A stretch of 64,000 nt of DNA from Rhizophagus irregularis (lineage: Eukaryota; Glomeromycota; Glomeromycetes; Glomerales; Glomeraceae): assembly GCF_026210795.1 (NCBI RefSeq), contig NC_089452.1, positions 1,984,001 through 2,048,000 of the forward strand. The letters run 5' to 3'. The notes below the pieces were generated by a model. It worked only from the letters and a program-made list of their open reading frames with translations. It was not told the DNA's origin and made no database searches. Shown here one piece after another: positions 6,411 through 51,557 of the stretch (within the stretch, counting starts at the first letter, position 1; each line of letters starts with the position of its first letter). The translations under genes were made by a program, and so were the position numbers.

Positions 6411-8307
6411 TCATTCAATATTATGTTCACTATCTTGACAAATTTCATTTAATTCTATAAAAAAAAATAGATTAGATAAATTAGAAAGGAAATATCATAT
6501 TAGTAAAATTAATAAATAATTACTTACCCAATTCACTTAATTGAACATCTAAGCATTCTGAAACTGTATATTATGTATTTATAGTATTTAAACATTAATA
6601 AATTTAAATAAAATAATTATAATAATGATAATTAAGAGAATACTTACTTGGATTTGCTGATGTTGATTGAGCAGTATAATTAGCATCTATTAAAAAAATA
6701 AAATAACATAAATAATGTAAAATGGATTATATGATAAAACAAAATTAAATTTAATTACCTGAACTGAATTGAAAAGATGATAAATCTGATGAATTTACTG
6801 GTTTTGGAAGATTTTTAAAATTTAAAAGTCTACTAGTATAAAATGCTTGTGGGTGTGTTTGGAAGCTTTTGGATTTATCTTCATTTGACCTGTTTTTGAA
6901 TTTTTCTTCTCTAGTTTTATCACATTCTTTTATTTGAAAGTAAATTTCACTATTTTGACTATCGGCACCATCATCCCATTTCTTTAATAGTTGATGTAAT
7001 TCTTTAGTGGTTGGTCTATTTTTTATTTCAGCATCCCAACATTTTATTATCAAATCTGCAAGTAACTTTGGTATGTCATTAGAAATTGTTGGTCTAAGTC
7101 CTTTACATATTTTAAAGGCTAAAAATTCATCATGAGGAATATCATTAAAAGGAATTTCTTCAGAAAGAAATTCATTCATTATTATTCCAAATGAGTAAAT
7201 ATCTGCTGCTTTTGTATATTGGTATCCACGTAAAACTTCTGGTGCCATATATGGTAATACTCCATAAATTCCTTCTTCTTTAACTGATTGCTTTATATTT
7301 GCTGGTTGACACATTCCTAAATCACTTATAAATGGAAGAGAATCAATACCATGCAATATATTACCTGAATGAAAATCTTTGTGAACTTTTTCAGCATTAT
7401 GAATATCTAAAAGTCCTCTTGCAATTTGTTGTAAGTTTTCAATTTTCAATTTATAATTGATATAATTTTTAGATTTATTTAAATAATTTCTCAAATTTCC
7501 ATATTTACAATAATATAAAACCATCATATACTCTTTATTATTTGGATCTTGAGTAATTCCATAACATTGAACAATATCATCATTATAAATCAGAAGATGA
7601 GATTTAATCTAATTATCATTAAAAATGAAAATTTTATTAATAAATAAATGCAAATAACAAACTTTATATATAAGATAAAGTAAGTTTAAATTACCTCATT
7701 TAAAAAATCTGAACATATATCAGAAGAATTATTCAAACTTTTTAATGCATATTTTTCAAAACTATATCTAAACCACTTTTGATTTTCAATATCCCAATAT
7801 TCAATATGTCCTACAGGCCATTCTGCTGAATAAATCTTACCGAAACCACCTTCTGCAATATAAGTGACGTTTTGAAATTTTTCAAAAGGTATCCATTCAA
7901 GACATTTAAGAAAATGTACAGCATTAAGTTGTGATTGTTGTATAAATTCATCAATATGTTTATTTCCACTAGTCCAATTTTTGAAGTTATCCTTAAATCT
8001 TTTAGCATTACAAGATTGACACCAATTGAATCCTGTGCCAGGTTCTTTACATTCTCCACATATTCCATATGCTTGTTTTCTTTTTTCTAAATCTCCTATA
8101 AAAACTACTCTTTCATCTACATTTTCTGATTCAATAGTTGAATCAATAGTAGGAATTGTAACATGGAGCTTTTAATAGACAAAAAATTATTAATATTTTT
8201 AACTACAAAAATTCAATAAATAATTATAATTATTAAAAATATTAAATTGCTATTACCTGATGTTTATCATCAACTTCCTTCCATAAATTTTTTGGCTTTT
8301 CATCCAT
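6411..8307 (-). CDS. TKL-like protein kinase 1 with N-terminal zinc-ribbon-like motif
   Basis: Spliced model, minus strand: exons 8307-8257, 8168-7695, 7608-6759, 6686-6648, 6557-6528 and 6454-6411, giving 495 residues with every junction GT-AG and in phase. Residues 54-70 carry CxxC...CxxC (Cys54, 57, 67, 70), a likely zinc ribbon, followed by WTSGNKHIDEFIQ. The kinase domain has a glycine loop EGGFGKIY (123-130), Lys160 in YALK, catalytic HKDFHSGN (Asp253, Asn258), SDLG in place of DFG (Asp271) and an APE motif. The Arg of HRD is replaced by Lys, so it is a non-RD-type kinase, but catalytic residues remain and activity is plausible. The tail carries HPQAFYTSRLLNF, a motif shared with kinases 2 and 3. 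The three tiny 3' exons (39, 30 and 44 nt) are inferred from splice signals and phase. Substrates are unknown. Confidence 0.9.
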
Positions 8308-13827: not shown

Positions 13828-16800
13828 ATGGACCAACGTGTTAAAGGTAAAGCATAGTATAACATGAAAGTTGAAATATTAAGATTTTTATTTATTAAAA
13901 AAATTTAATTGTAAATATAATTAAACCAACTTTGCAATATAACAAAACTAGTATTCGAAGGAAATGATACCAAGGAATCTAATGGTATGTCAAATAAGCT
14001 GAAATATTAAACTTTCATTTATAAACAATTCAAATACTATCTATAGTTTTATCTCATATAATATGCAAATATAATTTAGACTAATTATATTATATAAAAA
14101 TTATGTTAAATTTTTAGCTCGTAAGTTAATATAATTGAATAATAATGAGTTACTCATTATTTTTATTGTATTCCATATAACTAAATAATTTATTTAATGA
14201 TTAATAACACTGTTGTTTGTAAGTTATCAGTTATTTAAATTTTTAGTCCTTTACTTTATTTATTTTACATAACAACTAAATTCTTTGTTTAAATAACTAT
14301 TTAACAATTAATTTTATTACAGATGGTAAGTTACAATATATATATTATATTTATTTGTTTAATATTTTATATAATTCAACTAATTATATTATTAATTTAA
14401 ATAACTAGATTGTAAGTAATATATAATAACTTATAGTAAATATTTTGTATTATATTATATCTAACTAATTAATAATTAATAATACTACAGGGTGTAAGTT
14501 ATATAATATCTATATTTATATTATTTATATAATTTAAACTATCTAATTTCTTTATTTATTTAATAGATCGTAAGTTATAAGTTATTTATTTAATTTTATT
14601 ATTACTTATTTATACAATATTTATAGATAATTCAAACTAACTAATTTCTTTATTTAATAGATCGTAAGTTATAAGTTATTTAGTATTTAATTCTATTATT
14701 ACTTATTGTTATAATATTTACATATAATTCAAACCAACTAATTTCTTTATTTAAAAAAATTAATAAGATAAAGGGTGTAAGTTATTTATTGTCCAGAGCG
14801 TAGCGAAGGACTATTTATTGTATGGAACTAGATAAATTTGTAGTACCAGTTTAACCCATGTAATTTTCCTTCCTTCCACCTACGTCATCACCACAATTTC
14901 CTTTTTGAAACATAATGCCCCTGCTTATTTCCCTTTATACTTTTTATTTTTAGTAACATTGTATGCAATGTCCTTGATTACTTAATAAAGCAAAATGTAT
15001 CATGTTCATTATATAAAAAAAAAGACCCCGTATTTGAAAAAATTTTGTCACGTCGCGTTACTCCGCATATCACATCTGATAAGATCAATAATCAAACAAA
15101 TAAGTCACATGAAAAAAAAAGTACTTTCCTATTTCCTTCGTCTTACCCTTCCCCTTACTTCTCTCACTTTTTCTGGGGTTTAGTTTCCTTGAGCGTGATA
15201 TTTCAGGTTTTCATTTTTTTTTCTTTAATTTTTTTATCTTGGACCGGTTTTTAACATTTTTTTTCTTTTTTAGGCATTGTTTCTTAGCACTTTGGATACA
15301 TAGAAACTTGGTGAGAACATCTGCAAATGTATTTTTTCAAATTTATTTATTCTAACAAAGCATTGTTAACATTCAATTTTTCTCTTTTTTTAGATGGTTG
15401 ATGTTTAAAACAAAATACTGAAAGTTACCAGCAGCGCCAAGGAAAAATGGTTTTTTATGAATAAATTTTGGTGTAAACTTGGCCCTTTCAGACTTTTTTT
15501 TTTATTTTTCTTTTAATGAAATGTTACTAATAGTTCTTTTCTTTTTTTCTTTTGTAGGTGATTCTTTGAGTCTCTTGGACATATATTTTGGTAAGTGAAG
15601 TATTCTTTTTACTTAAATCAATTCTTTTAGCAAAATGTTTGCTAATATTTCATCTTCACTTTTTTTAGAGTCATCTGGACGCGTTAGATTTAGGTAAGAT
15701 ATTTTTTTACTTTGTTATTTGTTTTAACAAAATAACGAAACTTTTACTAGTAACATTTCGTTTTATTACTTTTTTTTAGACAGTTTCTTCAAATATCTAT
15801 GGACATGAATTTCGGTAAGGTTGGAAATCTGGTTCTCCCTAGATGCATTACGGTATGTGTTTAAATATTTTTTCTTTGTCTTTTTTTTTATTTTTAACAA
15901 AATGTAACGTCTGCTAATATTTTTTGTTTCTTTAGTTGCAGATTTTAGGCAGCTTTTGGGTGACGAAACGACTTATTGCTCCAGACTTACAATGGTTCCC
16001 ATTTCCCTAGTTTAATTTTATTATCACTTGTTGTTGTAATATTTACTTATAATTTAAACTAACTAATTTCTTTATTTAAAAAATTATTAATAATAAAGCA
16101 AGTAAGTTATTTATTTAATTCAATTATTACTTATTGTTATCATAATATTTAACATATAATTTAACTAACTAATTTCTTTATTTAAAAAATTATTAATAAT
16201 AAAGCAAGTAAGTTATTTATTTAATTATATTATCACTTATGGTTACAATATTTACATATAATTTAAACTAACTAATTTCTTTATTTAAAAAATTATTAAT
16301 AATAAAGCAAGTAAGTTATTTATTTAATTCAATTATTACTTATTGTTACAATATTTACATATAATTTAAACTAACTAATTTCTTTATTTAAAAAATTATT
16401 AAATAATATAGGGAGTAAGTTATTTATTTAATTCCAATATTACTTATTGTTATAATATTTATATATAATTTAAACTAACTAATTTCTTTATTTAAAAAAT
16501 TATTAAATAATATAGCGAGTAAGCTATTTATTTAATTCTATTACTACTTATTGTTATAATATTTACATGTAATTTAAAATAACTAATTTCTTTATTTAAT
16601 AGTTTGTAAGTTACAAGTTATTTATTTAATTCTATTATTACTTATTTACTTGTTACATATAATTTGAACCAACTAATTTCTTTATTTAAAAAATTATTAA
16701 ATAATATAGGGAGTAAGTTATTTATTTAATTCTATTATTACTTATTGTTACAATATTTACACATAATTTAAACACTAATTTCTTTATTTAAAAATTATTA

Positions 16801-18705
16801 AATAATATAGCAAGTAAGTTAATTATTTAATTCTATTATTACTTGTTGTTGTAATATTTACATATAATTTAAACTAACTACTAATTTCTTTATTTATTAA
16901 TAATATAGGGAGTAAGTTATTTATTTAATTCTATTATTACATATTGTTATAATATTTACATATATTAAAATAACTAATTTTTTTATTTAAAAAATTATTA
17001 AATAATATAGGGAGTAAGTTATTTATTTAATTCTATTATTACTTGTTACATATAATTTAAACTAACTAATTTCTTTATTTAAAAAATTATTAAATAATAT
17101 AGTGTGTAAGTTATTTATTTAATTCTATTATTACTTATTGTTATAATATTTATATATAATTTAAACTAACTAATCTCTTTATTTAAAAAATTATTAATAA
17201 TATAGGGTGTAAGTGTAAGTTATTTATTTAATTCTATTATTACTTGTTGTTATAATATTTTCACATAATTTAAACTAACTAATTTCTTTATTTAAATAAT
17301 TATTTATGATCTAGCTTGTAAGTATCTATATTGTTATATATTTATATAATTTTTATTTATTTGTTGACTGAATTCTTTCATTTGAAAAATATAGTCGGTA
17401 AATTGTAAATCATAGGTTATTATATGTATTTATCTATTAATTAAAACTCATATTAATTAAACATTAAATTCCTATTTGAATTTTAGAGTAAGTAATAATT
17501 TATTCGTATAAATTATAATACAATCTATAATATAATTTTATTATTCAAATTTATAGATTTGGAAAAAGTGGAAATGCAATTATGGATGATTTTATTTTTA
17601 AAAAAAAATTAAATTGGATTCCTTATGACAAATTTAAAAATGTTGAATATCTTAATGAAGGAGGATTTAGTATTATATACAAAGCTATTTGGTTAAAGAA
17701 TTATAAAGAAGTAATTGTTAAATGTCACAAGGATTTAAATGAAAATTTGAATGAATTTTTAAAAGAAGTATGATAGTGTATTGTTTTCTATTTTTAATTT
17801 AATTTATATTAATGAATTATTATTATTTTTTATAGTGGGAATGCCATACAAGTGTTTTAAACTCAACCAATATTATATATTTTTATGGATTCACAGAAGA
17901 TCCAAATACATCGAAATATATGGCAGTAATGGATTATGCAAATGAAGGTAATTTAAGAGGAAATTTAACAAGAATAGTCAAAAATGATTGGAATCAAAAA
18001 TTATATATGTTGTACGAAATTATTTCTGGACTTAGTAGGATACATGGAGAAAAGCTTATTCATTGTGATTTTCATGATGGTAATATTTTAAATCATAATG
18101 ATAAGAATAAGGATAAAATTTATATTAGTGATTTAGGATTATGTCAACCTGTAAAATCGTTTTTGAAAGAGTATGATATTCATGGTGTTATACCATTTAT
18201 GGCTCCTGAAGTTTTAAGAGGCAAACCTTATACTCCAGCTAGTGATATATATAGTTTTTCTATGATTATGTGGGAGTTTACATCTGGAATACCACCATTT
18301 ATTAATAGAGCACATGATCTTCAACTTAGTTTAAGTATTTGTAAAGGTGAACGTCCTGAAATTATTGAAAATACTCCACAATGTTATGTAAATTTAATGA
18401 AAAAATGTTGGAATGAAGATCCATTAAAAAGGCCATCTACATCAGAAGTGAAAGGTGTTATTTATAATTGGATTATCCTTTCCGATGATTATAAAATTTA
18501 TAAAAATGTTGATTATAAAATTTATAAAAAATCAAAAAGCAACTTTATGGAATTTATAAATGCAATTGGGTGCAACAACCTTGCTACTAAATCTCACCCT
18601 AAAGTAGGGATGGCAACGGTCGGTCATGGTCGGTCATTGGTCGGTCATAACCGGTCAAGAACCTTTGACCGACCGACCGACCGACCGTTTGACCGACCGG
18701 TCTGA
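13828..18705 (+). CDS. TKL-like protein kinase 2 with microexon array, C-tail truncated by a MITE
   Basis: Proposed model: exon 13828-13846 (MDQRVK), exon 13952-13984 (FEGNDTKESN), 21 three-nt exons from 14118 to 17397, a 1-nt exon at 17487, exon 17557-17767, and exon 17836-18705; 398 codons, in frame throughout. The kinase part is certain: WIPYDKF, glycine loop NEGGFSIIY, VIVKCHK, catalytic HCDFHDGN, SDLG, APEVLRG. HRD Arg is replaced by Cys (non-RD). The array part is a strong inference. If it is not used, translation could start at the Met at 17582. The final 34 codons lie inside a MITE at 18605. The original tail continues beyond it at 18968-19072 (CYTSRLLDF...LNDCVIKDLRSL), then an exon at 19143-19222 ending in TAG. 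The paralog at 42570-43719 keeps the uninterrupted tail. Confidence 0.85.
14118..17487 (+). repeat. Tandem mini-intron / 3-nt microexon array of kinase gene 2
   Basis: Units of about 100 bp each run from GTAAGT to a 3' TAG or CAG, with CTAAC-like branch sequences. Exactly 3 nt sit between the AG and the next GT. Triplets: CTC 14118, ATG 14323, ATT 14409, GGT 14491, ATC 14577, ATC 14661, GGT 14774; then after an insertion CAA 16099, CAA 16205, CAA 16308, GGA 16412, CGA 16516, TTT 16603, GGA 16710, CAA 16811, GGA 16909, GGA 17011, TGT 17103, GGT 17206, CTT 17315, TCG 17395, and a single A at 17487. A further copy at about 14216-14218 (TTT) has lost its AG and would be skipped without changing phase. 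Read in the kinase phase there is no stop. Whether all are spliced in is unproven. Confidence 0.75.
14789..16009 (+). other. 1.2-kb insertion inside the kinase 2 array, T-rich, intron-like modules
   Basis: The ~100-bp unit pattern breaks at about 14789 (after GTAAGTTATTTA) and resumes at about 16010 (TTTAATTTTATTATCACTTG), as if foreign DNA had entered one mini-intron. The insert has strong pyrimidine tracts ending in TTTTTTAG and several short exon-like segments followed by GTAAG. Examples end in GGACATATATTTTG (before 15590), CGTTAGATTTAG (before 15693) and GGACATGAATTTCG (before 15815). No protein family was recognised and no clear terminal repeats were found. It could be part of another gene or a transposed spliced transcript unit. 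Confidence 0.4.
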
Positions 18706-27345: not shown

Positions 27346-30249
27346 TATACCTTTCATGGTTTTTTCTGTTTAGCGTATATATATATTTTTTAATATTCTA
27401 CTAATTTTTGTTCGATGCAGTATTACATAAATCATTTTTTGTCCGGCCCGCCGTAGTAAATTTTGTATTGCGCAACATGCACGTGACGTTTGGGAATGTG
27501 CAAAATTTGCTCACATGATCATCATTAATGACCAATTGTTTTCGCTATACTGTACATCTAATATTTATTGACGCTACTTTTTATACAATGTTCCATTGGA
27601 AATAAAGGATATACGTTACAATTGACCCATATAGTCACACTCTTTTGAACAATACGTATGTTTATAAGTAACTCGGAATAAGATGATTATATTGGGTCAA
27701 ACTCTAATATTAAAAAAATATTACTATAATATACTGTATACTCAGCAGTTACTATTGTAGCTATAAAAAATTTTGAAAGACCAATAACTTTTATTCTAAA
27801 TTTTTGTGAATTATATTTTAGGATAAGATAATTTGCCGTCAGAAATGATGTAAATAATACAACAATTCCCAATTATCGAGAGTATAATGTTAATTCTTGT
27901 CCAATTATCCATCCAAAAACAACAGTTGGTGGTGGTGAAGTACTGAAGTATGCAATATTTGTCTCTCTTCCATGCCTGATTCTAGGAAAAAGAAATTATC
28001 ACCTTTTAAAAATAACATTAATTCGTGATCCGGATGTCGATCAGTGAAAATTCGTAAATAATAAGAACCTGACAAAGACAAGTCATTTCTTAATTTTTAT
28101 CGGAAGAGAAATTAATAATACATTCGAAAGCTGTGGTTTTTCTGCTATAAAATACTGCGTAACATTTTCATTTTGTTGCACTGGATGCAGTGATACCTTA
28201 CCCACAAAAATGCCAATCAAATAAATTTCATTAATGATCAAAATTTCGCACCATTTTTTGATAGTAATTTTCACTGATTTATAGCCGGATCTCGAATTGA
28301 TAATAAAAAAATATATAAAGCTAAAAATAATGTTTTAATATAGGTAGGAAGCGTGGTACAAAAGTTGGTGCAACTTATTTTATACTATTATTCTATAAAT
28401 ACATTAAATACATTGTGATGTGCAGATCTATTTCAAATCAGGTATGCCGTCTTTATATATTTTTTTGCGTTCGGAGTTTTTCGTATATAGAGATACCGTA
28501 TTTCCTACGGATACTTTAATTACTTTACTGTATGCATAAGTAGGTACATTTGCTTACAAAATTTCCGAATTTGCAAGCCTAAAAGGAGCGTAAAATGTAA
28601 CTTTATTTTTAAATTCAGAATTTTTGCGGAACAAATTTACCCACTTACAATTAACATGTAAGCAAGTACGTAAATTTCTTAAAAATCGGCATATTTAACA
28701 GTTACTATAAAAGGATATTACCGTTACGTTATAACAAAAATCGTCAAAATAAATAAGGTCATATTTTAAGGTTTAACTTTCTAAAAAAAAAAAACTGAAA
28801 GTTATTCTGAAATAAAGAAAATGGAATGCCCTTATTCGTGAAAATTTATTTATCCGAATACTCCCAAAATGTCTAGATCTACAACGAAAATATATATATA
28901 TATATATTTTGTCATAACAAAGCCAATCTTATTCCTTTTTACATTTACTACAACAATAATTTAATTAAAAAGGATTTTATTAAAGTTTTATTTTTATTAT
29001 GAATCGTCTGAATCTTGTTAGATGCATCTTATAAATTCAGTAAGAAGTTAGAAATGACAAAAATATCATAAAAACTTATGTTGAAGTTAGTTCGTGTATT
29101 AATTAAATAGTATAATAAAGGCTAACTGTACATATGCCATGTGGTTGGTAAGTCACCAATTATTTTTGGGATCGACAAAAGATTTGCGATTTCCCCTTGC
29201 GTAATAACGGTTGGCAAATTTTGCCTGAAAACCATCGAAGGATGATACTAAACAATAAATAATATTTGGTTGAAACAGAGAGAAAGGGTTAAAAGCTTCA
29301 TTTCAGATGATCTTAAACCATTCTAAAATTTATTAAATTTATTTTTAATATTATGTGTATGTAAATAAAATTTATGAGAACAAAAAAAAATTGTTGGGCT
29401 AAAAAAGCCCTTGTTAAAAAAAGTTGTTTTTGTAATTTATTATTTACTTATAGTGTGTTAATATTCTTCCGTATATGGTTCTTTTTTTTAATTTGGCGGT
29501 AGTTTATTTGATAACATATAATTTCCTACAAATATAAAACGGTGTAACTTAATGAAATACTCTATTCTTCTAACAATATATCCAATAATCGATAAAAGAT
29601 CATCAATTATTAAACAACACATGACACGTAAACATTGTGAATCTCCGAATAGAAAAAGGGTCTTTGTTTAATTTATTTTGATGATCAACATATGGGTTTC
29701 ATGTTAAATTTTCATTCTTTATTCCCTTTTTTTTTCCTTATTAGGGTTTAAAATGTTAAAATAAAAATATTAAAATATTTTTAAATGAAATAGTGAAATG
29801 AAACTCTTTGTGTATCAATTTTTTTTATTTTTTTTTATTTTTTTTTTATAAAATGACGAATTTTTTCTTTTAATTTGAAATTTTTTAAGAGAAAAATTAT
29901 CAGGAATAGTTTTTTCTCTTCATCCCGACACAGCCACCGCTTAAAATTTTTTTTTTTTTTTTTTTTTTTACTTGATTTATTTATTTACATTTTTTTTTTT
30001 TTTCATTCATTTTCATTTATTATTTATTTTTTTTTTATTCTTCCTAACGTAAGAAAAAATTTCACATCCTTGTGATTTATTATTTATTTTATCTTTTTTT
30101 TTTTTTTTTAGAAAAAAAACAAAAAAAAAATTACTATTTTTAACAAACGTTAATTTATACATTCATTAAAATCAAAACCCTAATTTCTTTAAATCAAAAA
30201 AAAAAAAAAAAAAAATTATTTTTTTCTTTCTTTATTATAATTTTAAACC
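27346..30249. other. Long intergenic stretch and promoter of the Smr-Sel1 gene
   Basis: No gene could be supported. There is an AT dinucleotide run near 28891-28907. From about 29800 to 30240 homopolymeric T and then A tracts dominate (T-runs at 29820-29850, 29945-30000 and 30095-30110; A-run at 30198-30215). These are typical of highly expressed fungal promoters and 5' leaders in such genomes. Short open frames at 27687-27872, 28083-28274 and 29875-30075 lack coding character. Confidence 0.5.
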
Positions 30250-32196
30250 ATGTCACCAATCTTACCCGAAAAAGTTAAACGAAGTAAATCTGGTACAAAA
30301 TACCTTCCTGCAGTTGACCTGCATGAACGCAGGTATAAAGAAGCAAGAAATATCGTAATAAATACGATACAAGAATCTCATGCTACGGGTATTTCTCGTA
30401 TAAGATTCATAACTGGACGTGGAAATCACGTAAATCAAAATGGTGAACAAGGAGTACTTTATAAAGCTTTTCGCTCATGGTTGTCTGATACTACTATTAA
30501 ACATTTGGTACAAAGTTATATCAAATATGATGGATCTTATGTAGTATTTCTTAAAATATCTAAGGAATCAAATTCTACGGATTCATACTTTGATGTAAGT
30601 GTTATTAAACAAGAAGCTTTAAATGGTGATATTGATGCGCAATTTATTCTTGGATTAATGTATCTTGATGGTAATGGTGGTGTTAAACAAGATGCTGCTG
30701 AAGCTTTAAAATGGTTAAGAAAATGCGCTGAAAAAGGTGATATTAGTGCACAATTAATTATTGGAAATTTATTACAAGAAGGAACCGTTGTTGATAAAAA
30801 TGTTAAAGAAGCTTTTAAATGGTTTAAAAAAGCTGCTGAAGGTGATAATTCTGATGCTCAACTTATACTTGGAAGAATTTATCTTGATGGTAATGAAGCT
30901 AAACAACAAGATATTGGTCAAGCCTTAAAATGGTTTAAAAAATCTGCTGAAAAAGGTGATGATAGTGCACAATTAATAGTTGGTGAATTATTATATCAAG
31001 GAAAAGGCGCTAAAAAAGATATTAAAGAAGCTTTTAAATGGTTTAAACAATCTGCTGAAAATGATAATCCTGATGCTCAATTTACTATTGCAAAAATGTA
31101 TTTTGATGGTGATGGTATTAAAAAAGATATTGATGAAGCTTTAATATGGTTGAAAAAATCTGCTGAACAAGGTGTTGTTAATGCTCAATTATTTATTGGA
31201 AATTTATTATATGAAGGAAATGTTATTAAAAATAATTCAAAAGAAGCTTTTAAATGGTTTGAAAAAGCTGCAGAAAAGGGTAATTTGGATGCTCAATTTA
31301 CTATTGGACGTATGTATCTTGATGGTAATGGAGTTAAAAAAGATATTGAAAAAGCTTTAAAATGGTTTAAACAACCCGCTGAACAAGGTGATCCTAATGC
31401 ACAATTTATCGTTGGAAATTTATTACAAGAAGGAAAAAGCGTTAAAAAAGATGCTAAAGAAGCTTTTAAATTATTTAAAAAAGCTGCAGAAAATGGTAAT
31501 ATGGGCGCTCAATTTACTCTTGGAAGAATTTATCTTTCTGGTAATGAAGTTAAACAGCAAGATATTGGTCAAGCTTTAAAATGGTTTAAAAAATCCGCAG
31601 AACAAGGCGATGTTAGTTCACAATTAATCGTAGGAAATTTATTATACGAAGGAAAAGGCGCTAAAAAAGATACTAAAGAAGCTTTTAATTGGTTTAAAAA
31701 AGCTGCAGAAAATGATAGTACCGATGCTCAATTTACTATTGGACGAATGTATCTTGATGGTGATGGAGTTGATAAAGATTTTGAAGCTGCTTTAAAATGG
31801 ATCAAATTATCTGCTAAACAGGATGATACTAATGCTCAATTACGAGCTGGAAAATTATTATATGAAAGTAAAGATATGAGTAACGGTAATAAAGAAGCTC
31901 TCAAATTGTTTAAACAAGCAGCTAAACAAAATAATGCTGATGCACAAATTATGGTTAGTAAAATGTATTTAAATGGCGATGGAGTTTGGAGGAAAAATAA
32001 CAAGAAATCATTAAAATGGATGTTAAGAGCCGCTGAACAAAATAATAATACAGAAGCTCAATTTCTCCTTGGAAAGATGTACGCTAAAGGCAATGGGGTT
32101 AAACAAAAGAATATTGAAGAAGCCCTAAAATGGTTTAAAAAGGCTGCTGAACAAGGACATTTTGAAGCCGGAATTATCGTTGATGCTTTTGTTTAA
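30250..32196 (+). CDS. Smr domain protein with 14 Sel1 repeats
   Basis: Single exon, 648 residues. Residues 18-105 form an Smr domain: the DLH motif (23-25, followed by Glu rather than the usual Gly), an EA pair at 31-32, TGRGNH at 55-60 and the GVLYKAFRSWL helix. Smr domains bind or cut nucleic acid, and DLH plus the TGxGxH loop are the key signatures. Residues about 120-645 are 14 consecutive ~36-residue Sel1 (TPR-like) repeats, each with AQ..xGxxYxxG and EALKWFKKAAE features. They alternate between a Y-L-D-G type and an L-L-Y-E-G type, so the array grew by doubling a two-repeat unit. The protein is probably a cytosolic scaffold with a nucleic-acid-related head; partners are unknown. The ATG is preceded by a leader ending TTTTAAACC. 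Confidence 0.93.
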   Translation: MSPILPEKVKRSKSGTKYLPAVDLHERRYKEARNIVINTIQESHATGISRIRFITGRGNHVNQNGEQGVLYKAFRSWLSDTTIKHLVQSYIKYDGSYVVFLKISKESNSTDSYFDVSVIKQEALNGDIDAQFILGLMYLDGNGGVKQDAAEALKWLRKCAEKGDISAQLIIGNLLQEGTVVDKNVKEAFKWFKKAAEGDNSDAQLILGRIYLDGNEAKQQDIGQALKWFKKSAEKGDDSAQLIVGELLYQGKGAKKDIKEAFKWFKQSAENDNPDAQFTIAKMYFDGDGIKKDIDEALIWLKKSAEQGVVNAQLFIGNLLYEGNVIKNNSKEAFKWFEKAAEKGNLDAQFTIGRMYLDGNGVKKDIEKALKWFKQPAEQGDPNAQFIVGNLLQEGKSVKKDAKEAFKLFKKAAENGNMGAQFTLGRIYLSGNEVKQQDIGQALKWFKKSAEQGDVSSQLIVGNLLYEGKGAKKDTKEAFNWFKKAAENDSTDAQFTIGRMYLDGDGVDKDFEAALKWIKLSAKQDDTNAQLRAGKLLYESKDMSNGNKEALKLFKQAAKQNNADAQIMVSKMYLNGDGVWRKNNKKSLKWMLRAAEQNNNTEAQFLLGKMYAKGNGVKQKNIEEALKWFKKAAEQGHFEAGIIVDAFV

Positions 32197-37917: not shown

Positions 37918-38374
37918 TTTTGTGTGGAACTAAAGAACCTGAAGGTAAATATAATATACAAAACAAAGTTGAAATATTAAGATTTTTATTTATTAAAAAA
38001 CTTAATTGTAAATAATCAAATATAATTAAATCAAATTTGCAATATAACAAAACTAGTTTCAAGTAATATTGAAGAATTTGAAGAAAGTGGCACTGGAGAA
38101 TATAAGGGTATATTAAACAAGCTGAAATATTAAATTTTTATTTATTAAAACATTTAATTGTAAATAATCAAATATAATTAAACCAAATTTACAATATACA
38201 AAACTAGTTACCAGTAATATTGAAGAATTTGAAGAAAGTGACACTGAAGAATTTGAGGGAGTGGAACTGAAAAATTTGAAGAAAGTGGTATTGAAGAATT
38301 TAAAGAAAGCACTAAAGAATTTGAAGGAAGTGGAACTGAAGAATTTGATGATAGCAGTATTAAGGAATCTAAAG
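37918..38374 (+). CDS. Acidic 5' exons of kinase gene 3
   Basis: Three exons follow ACTAG acceptors: 37918-37944 (LCGTKEPE), 38057-38107 (SSNIEEFEESGTGEYK) and 38208-38374 (TSNIEEFEESDTEEFEG...). The third holds several copies of a GAAGAATTTGAAGAAAGTGG-type unit, so the gene encodes Glu-rich repeats. The introns between them are near-identical, so the exon-intron unit was duplicated. The first two exons end in phase 1, as does the matching exon of gene 2. The third is 167 nt, one short of phase, because an A is missing in GAGGGAGTGG near 38258. See the array entry for a possible compensation. No ATG precedes them in frame. An ATG in the shifted frame lies at 38347. Confidence 0.5.
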
Positions 38375-38496: not shown

Positions 38497-41400
38497 CTCG
38501 TAAGTTAATAAGTTATCTTATAATTTCTTATAATTGAATAATAATGACATTACTTATTATTTGTGTTATATTCCATGCAACTAAATAATTCATTTAATGA
38601 TTAATAATACTATAGTTAGTAAGTTATCAGTTATTTAAATCTTTAGTTCTTTTCTTAATTTATTTTACATTATATTCAGATAAATTCTTTGTTTAAATAA
38701 CTATTTAATATTACAGATGGTAAGTAACAATAGTATATTTATTTGTTTTAATATTTTATATGACTCAACTAATTATATTCTAAATTCAATTAACTAGATT
38801 GTAAGTTGATAGTATATTTAATTTATAGTATTAAAATGCTTTGTATTATATTTGTATCTAACTAATTATTGATAATTATACTACAGGGTGTAAGTTGTAT
38901 AATATTTATATTTCTATTATATATATAAAATAAGCTAACTAAACTTTATTGAAAAATTTCCTTTTAGTTGGTAGGTTATAAGTTATTTATTTAATTTTAT
39001 TATTACTTATTTATATACAATATTTAAACTAACAAATCCTTTATTTAAAAAAATTATTTAATAATATAGAGTGTATGTAAGTTATTTAATTAATTCTATT
39101 AATATTTATTTATATAATATTTACATATAATTTAGACTAACTAAATTCTTTATTTTAAAAAAATTATTTAATAATATAGGGAGTAAGTTATTTATTTAAT
39201 TTCATCATTATTTATTTATATAATATTTGCATATAAACTAAATCCTTTATTTAAAATTATTTTGTAATTTCTTTTAGCTGGTAAGTTTATAAATTATTTA
39301 TTTAATTCCGTCTATTATTGCTTTTAAATAATACTATATATATAATTCAACCAAACTAAATCCTTTAATTAAAAATTATTTTGTAATTTTCTTTTAGATG
39401 GTAAGTTATAAGTATTTATTTAACTCTATTATTACTATTTATATAATATTTACAAATTTTTACTTAAAAAATTATTTTATAATTCCTTTTAGATCGTTAG
39501 TCATTTACTTAATTCTATTATTAAATATTTATATAATCCTTACATATAATTTAAACCAACTAAAACTTTTATTTAAAAATTATTTAATAATATAGGGTGT
39601 AAGTTATTTATTTAATTCTATTGTTATTTATTTAAATATTTGCATATAATTTAAACTAATAAATTCTTTATTTAAAAAATTATTTAATAATATAGTTCGT
39701 AAGTTAAATATTTAATTTTATTATCACTTATTTATATATAATTTAGACTAACTAAATTCTTTATTTAAAAAATTATTTAATGATATAGAGAGTAAGTTAT
39801 TTACTTAATTCTATTATCACTTAATCATATAATACTTATATATAATTTATTCTTTATTTAACAAAATTTTTTTGTAACTTATTTTAGATGGTAAGTTATA
39901 AATTACTTATTTAATTCTATTATTATATATTTATATAATATTTAAAAATTATTTTGTAATTTCCTTTAGATCGTAAGTTATAAGTTATTAATTATTACTT
40001 ATGTACATATAATTTAAACTACTAACTAAATTATTTATTTAAAAAATTATATAATAATATAGGGTGTAAGTTATTTATTTAATTCTGTTATTAATAGTTT
40101 ATATAATATTTACATATAATTTAAACTAACTAATTGTTTATTTAAAAAATTATTTAATGATATACTAGGGTGTAAGTTAATCTATTTAATTTTATTATTA
40201 ATTGTTTATATAATATTTACAAATAATTTAAACTAACTAAATTCTTTATTTAAAAATTATTTTTATAACTTTGTTTAGTGAGTAAGTTATAAGCTATTTA
40301 TTTAATTCTATTAATTTAATTTAACTAATTCTTTATTTAATAATATAGGGAGTAAGTTATTTTTAATTCTATATTACTTATTTATATAATATTTAAATAT
40401 AATTAAACTAAATAAACTATTTATTTAAAAAATTATTTTGTGATTTCTTTAGCTCATAAGTTATAAGTCATTTATTTAATTCTAGTATAATTACATATTA
40501 TATGATATATACATTAATTTAAACTAATTAAATTCTTTAAATTATTTTAATTTCATTAGCTCGTAAGCTATTGTTATTTATTTACTTATTTTATATAATA
40601 TTTTCATATTAATTTAAACTAACTAAATTGTTTATTTAAAAATTATTAATAATGTAGGGGGTAAGTTATTTATTTAATTCAATTATTACTTATTTATATA
40701 ATATTTACATATAATTTAAACTAATTAAATTATTTATTTAAAAATTATTAAATAATACAGAGAGTAAGTTATTTATTTAATTCTATTATTACTTATTTAT
40801 ATAATTTAAACTAACTAAATTTTTTATTTAAAAAATTATTTAATATTATAGAGTGTTAGTTATTATTCAATTCTATTATTATATATTTATATAATATTTA
40901 AAAATTATTTTGTAATATCCTTTAGATCGTAAGTTATAAGTTATTAGTTATTACTTATGTACATATAATTTAAACTAACTAAATTATTTATTTAAAATTA
41001 TATAATATTATAGGGTGTAAGTTATTTATTTAATTCTGTTATTAATAGTTTATATAATATTTACATATAATTTAAACTAACTAAATTCTTTATTTAAAAA
41101 ATTATTTTACAGATGGTAAGTTATTTATCTAATTTTATTATTGCTTATTATTTATATAATATTTACATATAACTTAAACTAACCAAATTCTTTATTTAAA
41201 AAATTATTAAATAATATAGAGAGTAAGTTATTTATTTAATTCTATTATTATTTATTGTTATAATCTTTACATATAATTTAATCTAACAAATTTCTTTATT
41301 TAAAAATTATTAAATAATATAGGGTGTAAGTTATTTATTTAATTCTATTATTACTTATTGTTATTATATTTACTAATAATTTAAACTAACTAATTTCTTT

Positions 41401-42477
41401 ATTTAAAAAATTATTAAATAATATAGGGTGTAAGTTATTTATTTAATTCTATTATTATTTGTTGTTATAATATTTACTTATAATTTAAACTAATTCCTTT
41501 GTTTAAAAATTATTTCATAGATGGTAAGTTATTTATTTAATTCTATTATTACTTATTGTTATAATATTTACATATAATTTAAACTAACTATATTCTTTAT
41601 TTAAAATATTATTTTATAGATAGTATGTTATTTAATTCTATCATTACTTATTGTTATAATATTTACATATAATTCAAACTAATTAACTATTTATTTTAAA
41701 AAAATATCTTATAATTTCTTTTAGATCGTAAGTTATAAGCTATTTATTTTAATTCTAACATTATTTTTTATATAATATTTACATATAATTTAAACTAATT
41801 AAATTCTCTATTTAAAAAATTATTTAATAATATAGAGAGTAAGTTATTTATTAATAATATTTTTATTATGGTTAAATATTATTTAAGTTATTTATTTAAT
41901 TCTATTATTAATTATTACATGATATTTACATATAATTTAAACTAACTAAACTATTTGTTTAAAAAATATTTTGTATTTCTTTTAGATCGTAAGTTATAAG
42001 CTATTTTTATTTTAATTCTACCATTACTTATTTATATAATATTTACATAATTTAAACTAACCAAATTCTTTATTTAAAAATTATTTAATAATATAGAGAG
42101 TAAGTTATTTATTAATAATATTTTTTATAATGGTTAAATATTATTTAAACTACTAAATTTTTAATTTAAAAAATTATTTAATAATATAGAGTGTAAGTTA
42201 TTCATTTAATTCTATTATTACTTAGTTATATAATCTTTATATATAATTTAAACTAACCAAATTCTTTATTTAAAAAAATTATTTGATAATATAGATTGTA
42301 AGTTATTTGTTGTTTCTATTGTTATAATATATTTCATATAATATTTATTTGTTACTGAATACTTTCATTTGAAAATTTCTGTTACTTTAGTTGGTAAGTT
42401 GTAAAATATGAGTTATTATTATAAATTTATACAAAAGTTAAAACATATATTATATTAAATTCCCATTTAAATTTAGA
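38497..42477 (+). repeat. Tandem mini-intron / 3-nt microexon array of kinase gene 3
   Basis: Forty triplets, spaced about 100 bp, lie between a 3' splice site (mostly AATATAG or CTTTTAG) and a 5' splice site (GTAAGT; variants GTAGGT, GTATGT, GTTAGT). Examples: CTC 38497, TTA 38616, ATG 38717, ATT 38798, GGT 38887, TTG 38968, GGA 39180, TGA 40279, GGG 40658, ATC 40926, ATA 41620, AGT 42190, TTG 42391, then a lone A at 42477. One copy (CTC 40453) has lost its donor; one (AGT 39070) has a 4-nt donor extension. Joined in phase 1 the array reads ALNDWFEWTDDRFQNDRWLR and some 20 more residues without a stop, then enters the kinase exon in frame. Phase 0 meets TGA and phase 2 meets TAA. Use of every unit is unproven. 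Confidence 0.8.
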
Positions 42478-42569
42478 GTAAGTGTTAATTTATTTTAAAC
42501 TTAATTTTATGTAAATTTTAATATAAAAGTTATAAACATTAATATAATTTTAATCATTTACATTTATAG

Positions 42570-43719
42570 ATTTGGAGAAAGTAAAAATAGAATTATGGAT
42601 AATTTTATTTTTGAAAAAGGTTTAGAATGGATTCCCTATAATAAACTTAAAAATGTTGAATATCTTAATGAAGGAGGATTTGGTACTATATACAAAGCTA
42701 TTTGGTTAAATAATGATAGAGATGATGGAGATAAAGAAGTAATTCTTAAATGTCATAAAAATTTAAATGAAGATTTAAATGAATTTTTAAATGAAGTATG
42801 ATAATATATTATTTATATTTTTAATTATTTAGATTATAATCTATATATACTAATATATTATTATTTTTTATAGTGGAAATATCATGAAAGTTGTTTAGAT
42901 TCAAGTAATATTATAAATCTTTATGGATTTACAAACAATCCAGATACTTTATTATATATGGTAGTAATGGATTATGCAAACAAAGGTAATTTAAGAGAAA
43001 ACTTAACAAGAATAATCAAAAATAATTGGAATCAAAAACTATATATGTTGTATGAAGTTATTTCTGGACTTAATAAGATACATGAACAAAATCTTATTCA
43101 TTGTGATTTTCATGATGGCAATATTTTAAATCATAATAATGATAAAGTTTATATTAGTGATTTAGGATTATGTCAATCTGTAAAATCATTTTTGAAAAAG
43201 TATGATATTTATGGTGTTATACCATTTATGGCACCTGAAATTTTAAGAGGTAAATCTTATACTCCAGCTAGCGATATATATAGTTTTTCTATGATTATGT
43301 GGGAATTTACATCTGGGGTACCACCATTTAACAATAGAGCACATGATCTTCAACTTAGTTTAAGTATTTGTAAAGGTGAACGTCCTGAAATTATTGAAAA
43401 TACTCCACAATATTATGTTGATTTAATGAAAAAGTGTTGGGATGAAGATCCATTAAAAAGGCCATCTTCTAAAGAAGTGTTGAATATTATTAAAGAATGG
43501 ATATTTCTTCCTTATAGAAAGAAAATTAGAGATATTAATGAAGAATTAAAATGTAATATTTTGAAATTTATAAATGCACCAATTGGATATAATAATCTTG
43601 CTACTGAACCTCATCCACAAGCACACTATACAAGTCGCTTACTTGATTTTACTAGTAAAGAATTGAATGAAATTCTTGAAAGTGAAGATTTGAATGATTG
43701 TATGGTATTAGGTATGTAA
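42570..43719 (+). CDS. TKL-like protein kinase 3, catalytic domain
   Basis: Exons 42570-42795 and 42874-43719. From the Met at 42595 there are 348 residues; upstream, the frame continues through FGESKNRI into the microexon array. Glycine loop NEGGFGTIY (25-33), Lys52 in VILK, catalytic HCDFHDGN (Asp145, Asn150), SDLG (Asp163), APEILRG. As in kinase 2, HRD Arg is Cys. The tail carries HPQAHYTSRLLDF and LNDCM. The last codons could be read through (VLGM then TAA) or spliced at GTATGT (43713) to a two-codon end at 43793-43797; both end within two residues. The gene is closely related to kinase 2 at 17557-18596, and its uninterrupted tail marks the empty site of the kinase 2 MITE. Soluble signalling kinase; substrates unknown. 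Confidence 0.92.
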
Positions 43720-49664: not shown

Positions 49665-51557
49665 ATGTATCAATCGGTTATTTTAGGATCTCTTCTATTG
49701 GCAACGCTTTACGTTTTAAAACGTATGCGTGATCCAAAATTGGTATGATACAAGATTCTAAGTCTTTAAAGACCTATCAAGAATTTCGTTGTTTCTTTAC
49801 TTAATTACTTATCTTTATTTATTTTTTTTTTTAGAATATGCCTCCGCTCGTTCGTTATAAGTTTCCAATTATTGGACATACCTACATTTATTTGACTAAT
49901 AGCGAAGAATTTCTTAAACAATGTAAAAAGGAGGTTTGTAGTTTTTGTAGACTTATGAATTTTTACACTCAATTAACGTTAAATGTTTATTAACTTTTTT
50001 AAATTATCATGTTAGTACGGTGAAATCTTCAGTCTATATTTATGGGGTGAAGTAAAAACAATTGTTGGTAAGTTACCCATTTTATATTATTAATAAAAAT
50101 ATTTTTATGTTTGTATTAATAAATTTTTTTTAATATGGTTCTATAGGAAAAGAACATCTGCAAGAAGTATTAAAGAGAGATGATTCATTTGATGCCGGAA
50201 TAGCATTTGAAAGATTATTGCCATTAAGTGTAATACTTAAACATTTAGCAAAATTTCAAAATTCGACAAAAGTACTTAAAGAGTATGTCATGAATAAGCT
50301 AAAAACTTATACTGAACGTATGCAAAAAAATCTTAATTTTGCTACTCAAAAATATATTGGTGATTGTGATGAACCAAAAATTATTAGTAATGTGTATGAT
50401 ACAATGACAAAAATTATTTGTTATCCTATTGCAGATATTTTTGTTGGTAAAGTAAGTATATTTGTTATACATACAGACCTAACATAATTTGCATTATATA
50501 TTTATATATATATATTTTTTAATAGGAGTTGTCACAATATGAAGAAATTATAAATACATTCTCAGATTTTACGATTGATGCAGCAAAAATTTCGATGATT
50601 CCGCCGGTTCTTGACTTCATTTATCCAAGACTTCAATATTATATCAATTGTATTATATTAAAAATCTATAATCCAGCAGTTAAACATCAAAGGATACTTA
50701 TTAAACATCTTAAAAATCAAATTTATAAACGTTTACAAGAGAAAGAAAAATATGGAGATTCCTGGAAACGTCCTGCAGATTTCCTTCAAGATCTTTTAGA
50801 AGAAGAAAGTTTTGATCCAAATAATATTAATTATGCAGAAATAGCAGATAAAATATGTTTATTTATATTCGTATCGATTCATACGACATCAAATAGTTGT
50901 ACACATGTTATTATGGATTTAGCATCTCGACCTGAATATATACAAGAATTATACAAAGAACAATTGGAAGTTCGTAAAGAAGCTGATGAAAATGGAATAC
51001 TTCCATTTGAAGCTCTTAATAACATGAAAAAATTAGATAGTTTTATCAGGGAATCTTTAAGATTATCTGAAAGTATATCAACACTTCCACATGTCGTAAC
51101 AAAAGATTATACATTCGCTAATGGATTACAAGTACCAAAAGACCGTGCAGTCCATCTTTACACTGATGATGTTTATCTGGATGAATCATTACAAGGACCA
51201 AATCCAAAATCATTTGAACCATTCCGACATTTAGAAACGAATGCTTCAGCAACAAAAATTGGTAAAAACTTTTTGTTATTCGGAGGCGGTAAACACGCGT
51301 AAGTATATTATTCTATTTAGCGTTTTTCAAAAAAATTTTTTTTGTTTTTTTTTGCATTATGAAAATAACAAATTATCGTTAAATTATTTAGATGTCCTGG
51401 AAGACAACTTGCTATAAACGAAGTTAAATTTTTCTTACATAATGTTATATTAAAATATAATTTACGTACCGAAAGCGGTAAAATCGAAGGACCAAAGATG
51501 ATTGGTCCAAGGAAATTTCCAAGTGAAGCTGGAATTGTTTTTGAAAAAAGAAAATAA
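49665..51557 (+). CDS. Cytochrome P450 monooxygenase (copy 2, six exons)
   Basis: Spliced model: exons 49665-49742, 49835-49933, 50016-50067, 50147-50451, 50526-51298 and 51392-51557, giving 490 residues with all GT-AG introns and consistent phases. An N-terminal membrane anchor (MYQSVILGSLLLATLYVLKR) is followed by a proline-rich hinge (NMPPLVRY). The I-helix reads FVSIHTTS (about 293-300), then ExxR in RESLR, FEPFRH in the meander, and heme loop FGGGKHACPGR with Cys437. The start matches the paralog exactly. Compared with copy 1 (1406-3294, opposite strand) exons 1-4 have identical lengths (78, 99, 52, 305 nt). Exon 5 is 6 nt shorter and exon 6 is 3 nt shorter. Electron partner would be an ER P450 reductase; the substrate is not predictable, though SIHTT I-helices are seen in terpene-oxidising fungal P450s. 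Confidence 0.95.

Follow-up and report, generated by a model that had tools for sequence, protein, structure and literature searches.

Can a block of DNA with the look of a satellite, lying ahead of a protein kinase gene, be a coding segment that is spliced and read a single codon at a time? The question is raised by the window analyzed here, the whole 64,000-nucleotide stretch of Rhizophagus irregularis contig NC_089452.1 (positions 1,984,001 to 2,048,000), in which two such blocks, array A and array B, each precede a kinase gene. Both are chains of units in which three nucleotides stand between a splice acceptor and a splice donor, in the form AG-NNN-GTAAGT. The reading favored by the analysis, at a probability of about 0.88, is that roughly 10 to 80 residues ahead of the kinase domain would be encoded one codon per unit of about 100 bp, with the units spliced consecutively. 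The one-codon-exon structure is not confined to the window and recurs in 55 kinase loci of this one genome, and stop codon counts indicate that the joined order and phase of the triplets is under selection against stops.

The first-pass annotation of the window had described array B as a chain of 40 three-nucleotide microexons upstream of a kinase exon that might encode a protein segment one codon per exon. Thirty-nine of these units were confirmed at the stated coordinates, as were the start of the kinase exon at 42570 and the end of the last upstream exon at 38374; the fortieth unit, CTC at 40453-40455, has a dead donor and is presumably skipped in splicing. Joining the triplets, from CTC at 38497-38499 to TTG at 42391-42393, behind the G that precedes the upstream donor reproduces the start of the quoted peptide, ALNDWFEWTDDRFQNDRWLR. 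The other two phases are closed as had been claimed, phase 0 by the TGA at 40279 and phase 2 by TTA-A (hyphens in joined codons and peptides mark exon junctions). The wording of one codon per exon needs correcting in that each codon is itself split by an intron: a phase-1 codon takes one base from the end of a triplet and two from the start of the following triplet, its halves lying about 100 nt apart. The stop-free phase 1 that had been offered as evidence is weak when array B is taken alone (0 stops in 36 codons, 2.27 expected, p = 0.05), whereas the set of 55 loci is far beyond chance.

This set was assembled from the genome assembly (146,748,485 bases, 32 contigs). The exact pattern TAGNNNGTAAGTTATTTATTTAATT has 1,458 matches genome-wide, 707 on the forward and 751 on the reverse strand, and its reversed control has none. 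Of 100 listed pattern matches, 83 are followed on the same strand by a listed kinase-exon match within 10 kb, and no pattern match comes after a listed kinase exon within that distance or has one within it on the opposite strand. Of the other 17, 13 were read: twelve form two clusters that by eye are also ahead of kinase-like frames, and one (L061) is a lone unit with no kinase-like frame in the 1.2 kb read. A similarity search with the first kinase exon gave 151 matches (150 of 3,740 candidates scored), and 53 further loci were taken from these, mostly those listed first, with L036 and L037 picked for their long arrays. Most of the fetched stretches extend 5 kb upstream, and longer arrays are therefore clipped. 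The kinase identity of these 53 loci rests on similarity to the first kinase exon, which in array B has no Pfam match by itself; the second exons of the two window kinases match the protein kinase domain (PF07714/PF00069). Together the 55 loci hold 1,840 accepted units, 11 to 81 in each (median 33), and include 618 of the 1,458 pattern matches, a ratio that suggests roughly 4,300 units genome-wide.

Stop codons were counted in 1,827 triplets of the 55 loci. Units scoring no higher than the motif threshold (6 in the main count) had been dropped beforehand, as had runs of a single triplet, whose removal took 1,840 units to 1,827, and joins with a spacing outside 55-140 nt. When neighboring triplets are joined in order in phase 1, one stop occurs in 1,691 codons, as compared to 52.6 ± 5.8 in 5,000 within-locus shuffles of the triplets, the lowest of which had 31. 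The first 20 loci, in which the hypothesis arose, have 0 stops in 586 codons (19.3 expected), and the 35 loci fetched after it was set have 1 in 1,105 (33.1 ± 4.5 expected). Stricter motif thresholds of 12 and 16 leave the result unchanged (1/1,628 and 1/1,420), and admitting gaps of up to 260 nt gives 3 stops in 1,757 codons (54.5 ± 5.7 expected). Readings of the triplets in phase 0 or phase 2 are rejected by their stop counts, with 7 stops in 1,827 triplets for the former and an excess for the latter (270 stops, 218.7 ± 9.5 expected).

The deficit is equally sensitive to which triplets are joined. Joining each triplet to the next but one gives 48 stops in 1,555 codons (48.1 expected) and to the one after that 44 in 1,430 (43.9 expected; 1,000 shuffles each), and no stop deficit was found for any non-neighbor join up to a distance of ten. 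Neighbors joined in reverse order give 61 stops in 1,691, and pseudo-triplets taken at ten offsets within the introns give 22 to 781 stops of 1,691. Stop avoidance is thus specific to order, direction and phase, which argues strongly that the triplets are joined to their immediate neighbors and translated. A stop excess was also observed at join distances 7 (39, 29.2 ± 4.5 expected) and 8 (36, 26.1 ± 4.6 expected), perhaps from block repeats.

The pairs that are missing across the introns are those that spell stop codons. T-AG (0/152), T-GA (0/33) and T-AA (1/38) are near-absent, T-GG (141/384) and T-AT (113/500) are common, and the numbers for T-TA (0/4) and T-CA (1/12) are too small to judge. 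The contrast holds when each pair type is counted once per locus (1/165 vs. 402/1,158, p = 8e-27) or once overall (1/82 vs. 107/376, p = 9e-10). A splicing motif as the cause of this cross-intron correlation was rejected, as the deficits follow the three stop codons while T-GG is common, and as phase 2, read over the same introns, has no deficit. Because some 100 nt of DNA separate the two halves of each codon, joining and reading would be the natural link between them. A neutral satellite free of cross-intron constraint likewise does not accommodate the three near-absent pairs.

The architecture of the units is that of very short exons between complete introns. In the first 20 loci an AG lies exactly 3 nt upstream of 570 of 603 GTAAGT sites, and 19 of the others follow the 1-nt last exon described below. 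Across the arrays of all 55 loci, 1,653 of 1,735 GTAAGT sites follow a 3-nt exon and 52 follow a 1-nt exon, these 52 not having been checked individually as last exons. Exon length is fixed at 3, in contrast to the introns between accepted units, which have a median of 98 nt and divide almost evenly by length modulo 3 (571/571/549, n = 1,691). A branch-point-like CTAAY is present in the expected stretch of 78.9% of these introns, as compared to 3.0% when the stretches are reversed. The triplets are flanked by complete donors and acceptors on both sides, and with AG-NNN-GTAAGT and CTAAY the signals of spliceosomal microexons (exons of 15 nt or less) are present at the sequence level.

Agreement of phase at both ends of the array had been part of the earlier argument, and it is well borne out at the kinase end only. 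There, the stop-free phase of array B meets the kinase frame because a 1-nt exon, A at 42477, intervenes; this exon was absent from the first-pass annotation and links the phase-1 codons to the kinase frame. Matching recovered a 1-nt exon A in 48 of the 55 loci, and by eye it was also seen in L004 (donor GTGAGT) and L020 (altered acceptor), while L036 by eye has C and L039 has T in its place. The preceding TTG exon of L039 has shrunk to 0 nt and the joined codon is TTA, not TAA; in this single case, read by eye, the 0-nt exon and the T look compensatory, avoiding TAA. The last two triplets are CTT TTG in 34 of the 55 loci, followed by the 1-nt exon and E-FGKSGN.., and ATT GGT, which with its neighbors gives D-W, occurs within the first six accepted triplets in 44. 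Between these conserved ends, ALxDW ... FE-FGKSGN, the segment is highly variable in length and sequence. At the upstream end a donor was recognized by pattern in 28 loci. Four of these (L008, L027, L045 and L047) have an upstream exon reading ..IVMDQ(R/C)I(E/K) and a single leftover base (MDQ..-G start exons), and in most of the other 24 the exon ends in ..ES(K/E/R/N) after E/S-rich repeats, again with one base over. The exon upstream of array B also leaves one base, in the frame that the array requires.

These observations support the original proposal that each exon contributes one codon to a protein segment, first through the stop avoidance across the 55 loci and further through the invariant exon length and the phase at the kinase end, with the upstream phase a weaker argument. 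Under this proposal the triplets would be genuine 3-nt exons, each spliced to the next, translated in phase 1 and followed by the 1-nt exon. Splicing would presumably proceed stepwise by intron definition, because U1 and U2AF should not both fit on a 3-nt exon; each triplet would be added to a growing exon, its donor being used next, and most transcripts would be expected to include all triplets. Gain or loss of a unit would change the protein by exactly one residue in frame, leaving arrays free to expand or shrink, and the product would be a kinase whose catalytic domain is preceded by a variable segment.

Several observations weigh against this proposal. The 55 loci are a non-random sample, and in 27 of them no upstream donor was recognized by pattern; in many of the donor-recognized loci the leftover-0 frame is open too, so that phase agreement there is weak. 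In the exon ending at 38374, the frame required by array B is open back only 39 residues and lacks a Met, and the first half of the repeats lies instead in the leftover-0 frame (69 aa), pointing to an apparent 1-nt deletion that has broken the frame of this copy. Thirty of the 1,735 GTAAGT sites have another exon length or no acceptor, although some of these are not array units, and L007, L025 and L027 lose frame if deviant units are counted in. One in-frame phase-1 stop occurs, in L021. Joins over gaps of 141-260 nt have 2 stops in 66, about the chance rate and a count that does not separate skipping from inclusion. Array A is split by about 1.2 kb of non-array, less AT-rich sequence (about 14790-16010). 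Finally, no spliced (retro-)copy was found among the matches of two expected-junction patterns, which number 1 and 5; five of the six were read by eye and none is kinase-like. Three of the junction-pattern matches (L054-L056) resemble each other.

Damage of this kind speaks for the alternative that the arrays were formerly coding and that many copies are now pseudogenes, the kinase being translated from a start within its own exon (IMDDFI). Both array copies in the window may be decaying, with the array B copy and array A damaged; the family is very large, and in L032, L035 and L041 other sequence, seen by eye, occupies the position of the 1-nt exon just before the kinase exon. Widespread decay would nevertheless introduce stops, and the single stop in 1,691 codons makes this alternative unlikely as a general account, though single copies may fit it.

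A second alternative holds that a mobile intron was inserted repeatedly, once per codon, into an ordinary coding stretch, with no duplication of an intron-plus-codon unit. Units were compared pairwise, in place of a column-wise gapless diversity profile that was blurred by indels. In 169 mutually closest pairs with no more than 5 flank differences (104 bases compared), the difference per site is 0.0109 in the introns and 0.138 in the triplets, a 12.6-fold contrast, and the triplet differs in 37 of the pairs; the introns are therefore more alike than the codons that they flank. No claim of positive selection is made, since the elevation extends to codon position 3. Among the 100 mutually closest pairs with identical flanks (104/104), 87 have the same triplet, 7 differ by one change and 6 differ at all three positions, the last speaking for repeated insertion. 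One example is L003:4553 and L025:4438 (oriented coordinates), whose flanks are identical and whose triplets differ throughout. Such whole-triplet changes between identical introns may point to short-tract intron conversion or intron movement over point mutation, and conversion within introns would by itself produce the identical-flank pattern. Random insertion, moreover, would not yield exact 3-nt spacing, and the arrays contain duplicated multi-unit blocks (e.g., in L036 and L042). Repeated insertion without unit duplication is accordingly judged improbable.

Signs of homogenization among the units are mixed. Flank haplotypes were counted in preference to raw unit pairs because the latter are inflated by repeated copies. 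Nineteen of the 100 flank haplotypes with at least two units carry more than one triplet. Identity between loci is limited: 14 of 1,575 haplotypes recur unchanged in two or more loci, and 10 of these 14 have more than one triplet. Of 1,800 units, a quarter have a relative that differs at no more than 2 of 104 ungapped intron bases, and half have one that differs at no more than 9.

Recursive or nested splicing, in which the sites serve as stepping stones and the triplets are finally lost or mostly skipped, has very little probability left. Recursive splice sites retain no exon after stepwise removal; AG-NNN-GT resembles such a site with a short exon, and a few zero-nt versions (AG-GTAAGT) do occur in the arrays. 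The first-pass annotation had itself raised the alternative that recursive or skipped splicing takes out the entire block, but lost triplets would leave neighbors with no stop avoidance, contrary to what is observed. The same avoidance requires the triplets in the message, by which a recursive site that leaves no exonic bases was rejected. Routine skipping of single exons in translated products fares no better, since joins to the next-but-one triplet should then avoid stops and instead have them at the chance rate. Least credible of all is a tandem satellite that sits within a long intron or a promoter, its splice-like motifs kept through descent alone and the block removed or never transcribed: the units are indeed called as a tandem repeat by a repeat finder, are very AT-rich and in many cases have near-identical introns, but a satellite accounts neither for an order-, direction- and phase-specific deficit of this size nor for exons fixed at 3 beside introns free modulo 3.

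If the arrays are chains of single-codon exons, as preferred here, the variable segment invites a functional suggestion. By analogy with the repeats of fungal non-self recognition proteins, such as the WD-repeat genes of Podospora, it could be a recognition or interaction surface, a possibility that is put forward with considerable doubt. A broader picture, conjectural and with the odds slightly against it, is that thousands of single-codon exons may ride on a mobile or recombining intron unit, so that the segment would be lengthened, shortened and reshuffled residue by residue, always in frame, into a hypervariable recognition-like region of a large kinase family.

The closest known systems share only parts of this arrangement. 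Exons of the schistosome micro-exon genes (MEGs) are longer, at 6-36 nt. The coding region of MEGs consists mostly of very small symmetrical exons that are alternatively spliced, and they form a fast-evolving protein family (PMC4350168); the likeness to the arrays lies in the series of tiny symmetrical exons. Unlike those of MEGs, the array exons are one codon long, occur in 11 to 81 units per locus and are built of repeated intron units, and small multiple-of-three exons are confined to the N-terminal segment, with the kinase domain in ordinary exons. In contrast to MEG exon skipping, the chance rate of stops when one exon is skipped (48/1,555) gives no sign of routine skipping. Plant microexons of 1-15 nt are spliced and coding, with flanking introns reportedly removed consecutively, and two adjacent ones of 5 and 12 nt have been verified in a rice transcript; unlike the arrays, they are as described there single or paired, with no link to a tandem repeat (PMC8831610). 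In the fungus Dactylellina haptotyla, the duplicated lipS gene has 3-nt exons between spliceosomal introns (PMC5639578), with two per gene as opposed to a chain. The same source describes stwintrons, whose splice sites lie in close succession, with an interrupted splice motif and a need for stepwise removal (PMC5639578). Whereas recursive sites leave no exon and stwintrons have an interrupted motif, the arrays would keep 3 nt of message at each step, and a stwintron was rejected because the triplets have complete donors and acceptors on either side.

A WD protein repeat is about 40 residues long. In the het-d/het-e (hnwd) WD-repeat genes of Podospora anserina such repeats are exchanged within and between loci, a few codons vary, repeat number varies and positive selection has been shown (PMC1805685); there the repeat is a protein repeat, whereas in the arrays it is an intron bearing a single codon. 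The R. irregularis genome paper refined exon boundaries with long reads and reports 2,533 kinases, and its available passages contain nothing on such exons (PMC10234402). An array of one-codon exons was not found in a literature search of titles and abstract beginnings, with partial coverage and no preprints.

If the proposal is true, many genes would carry chains of dozens of exact one-codon exons, a limit case for spliceosome fidelity and exon recognition, and the arrays would serve as a natural test of stepwise intron-defined splicing, with each 3-nt exon joined to the next without skipping. They also suggest a route to highly variable protein length and sequence without any loss of frame, the intron being the unit copied. 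Gene annotation probably omits the triplet exons, which would make many kinase models wrong in their N-terminal part. Should the segment mediate recognition, it would offer a way into how arbuscular mycorrhizal fungi tell self from non-self or recognize partners.

Array A, which the first-pass annotation did not include, precedes a paralogous kinase and begins much like array B, with CTC, ATG, ATT, GGT as compared to CTC, TTA, ATG, ATT, GGT. Its phase-1 stop count (0 in 18 codons, 0.00 expected) is uninformative. Beyond its interruption the array restarts with CAA triplets. The kinase that follows runs into a GGTCGGTCAT-type repeat at window positions 18612-18700, and its 3′ end may be disrupted. 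The features of both loci are collected in Table 1.

Table 1. Exons, arrays and kinase genes at the two array loci, in window coordinates.
Feature	Position	Strand	Details
Exon before array A	13952..13984	+	..VFEGNDTKESN-G, 1 leftover base; acceptor by eye
Array A, 21 three-nt exons	14118..17397	+	Triplets: 14118 CTC, 14323 ATG, 14409 ATT, 14491 GGT ... 17315 CTT, 17395 TCG
1-nt exon A of array A	17487	+	
Paralogous kinase after array A, two exons	17557..18594	+	Pfam PF07714, E 8.5e-32 on second exon
Last exon before array B	38208..38374	+	E/S-rich repeats; donor GTATATC; acceptor read by eye
Array B, 39 three-nt exons split by mini-introns	38497..42393	+	Near-consensus acceptor and donor at each; exon first bases: 38497, 38616, 38717, 38798, 38887, 38968, 39070, 39180, 39278, 39398, 39493, 39596, 39696, 39789, 39888, 39970, 40063, 40169, 40279, 40349, 40560, 40658, 40761, 40852, 40926, 41014, 41113, 41220, 41323, 41427, 41521, 41620, 41725, 41836, 41986, 42097, 42190, 42295, 42391
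Dead unit in array B	40453..40461	+	Acceptor TTTAG, CTC, then ATAAGT replacing GTAAGT
1-nt exon A of array B	42477	+	Between TTTAG and GTAAGT
First kinase exon after array B	42570..42795	+	E-FGESKNRIMDNFIFEKGLEWIPYNKLKNVEYLNEGGFGTIYKAIW..; end by eye from donor GTATGA
Second kinase exon after array B, protein kinase domain	42874..43719	+	Pfam PF07714, E 7e-37

Elsewhere in the window, another kinase-like gene on the negative strand (6751-8171) has a contiguous N-terminus, CGECKEPGTGFNWCQSC..NWTSGN, which we take to be zinc-ribbon-like, as compared to ALxDW..FEFGKSGN in the array genes. A 649-aa open frame at 30247-32196 contains tandem repeats of about 108 bp, an ordinary coding repeat without introns whose units presumably resemble Sel1 repeats. 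Two sets of enzyme-like open frames, at 1654-2841 on the negative strand and 50134-51302 on the positive strand, are by eye similar to each other.

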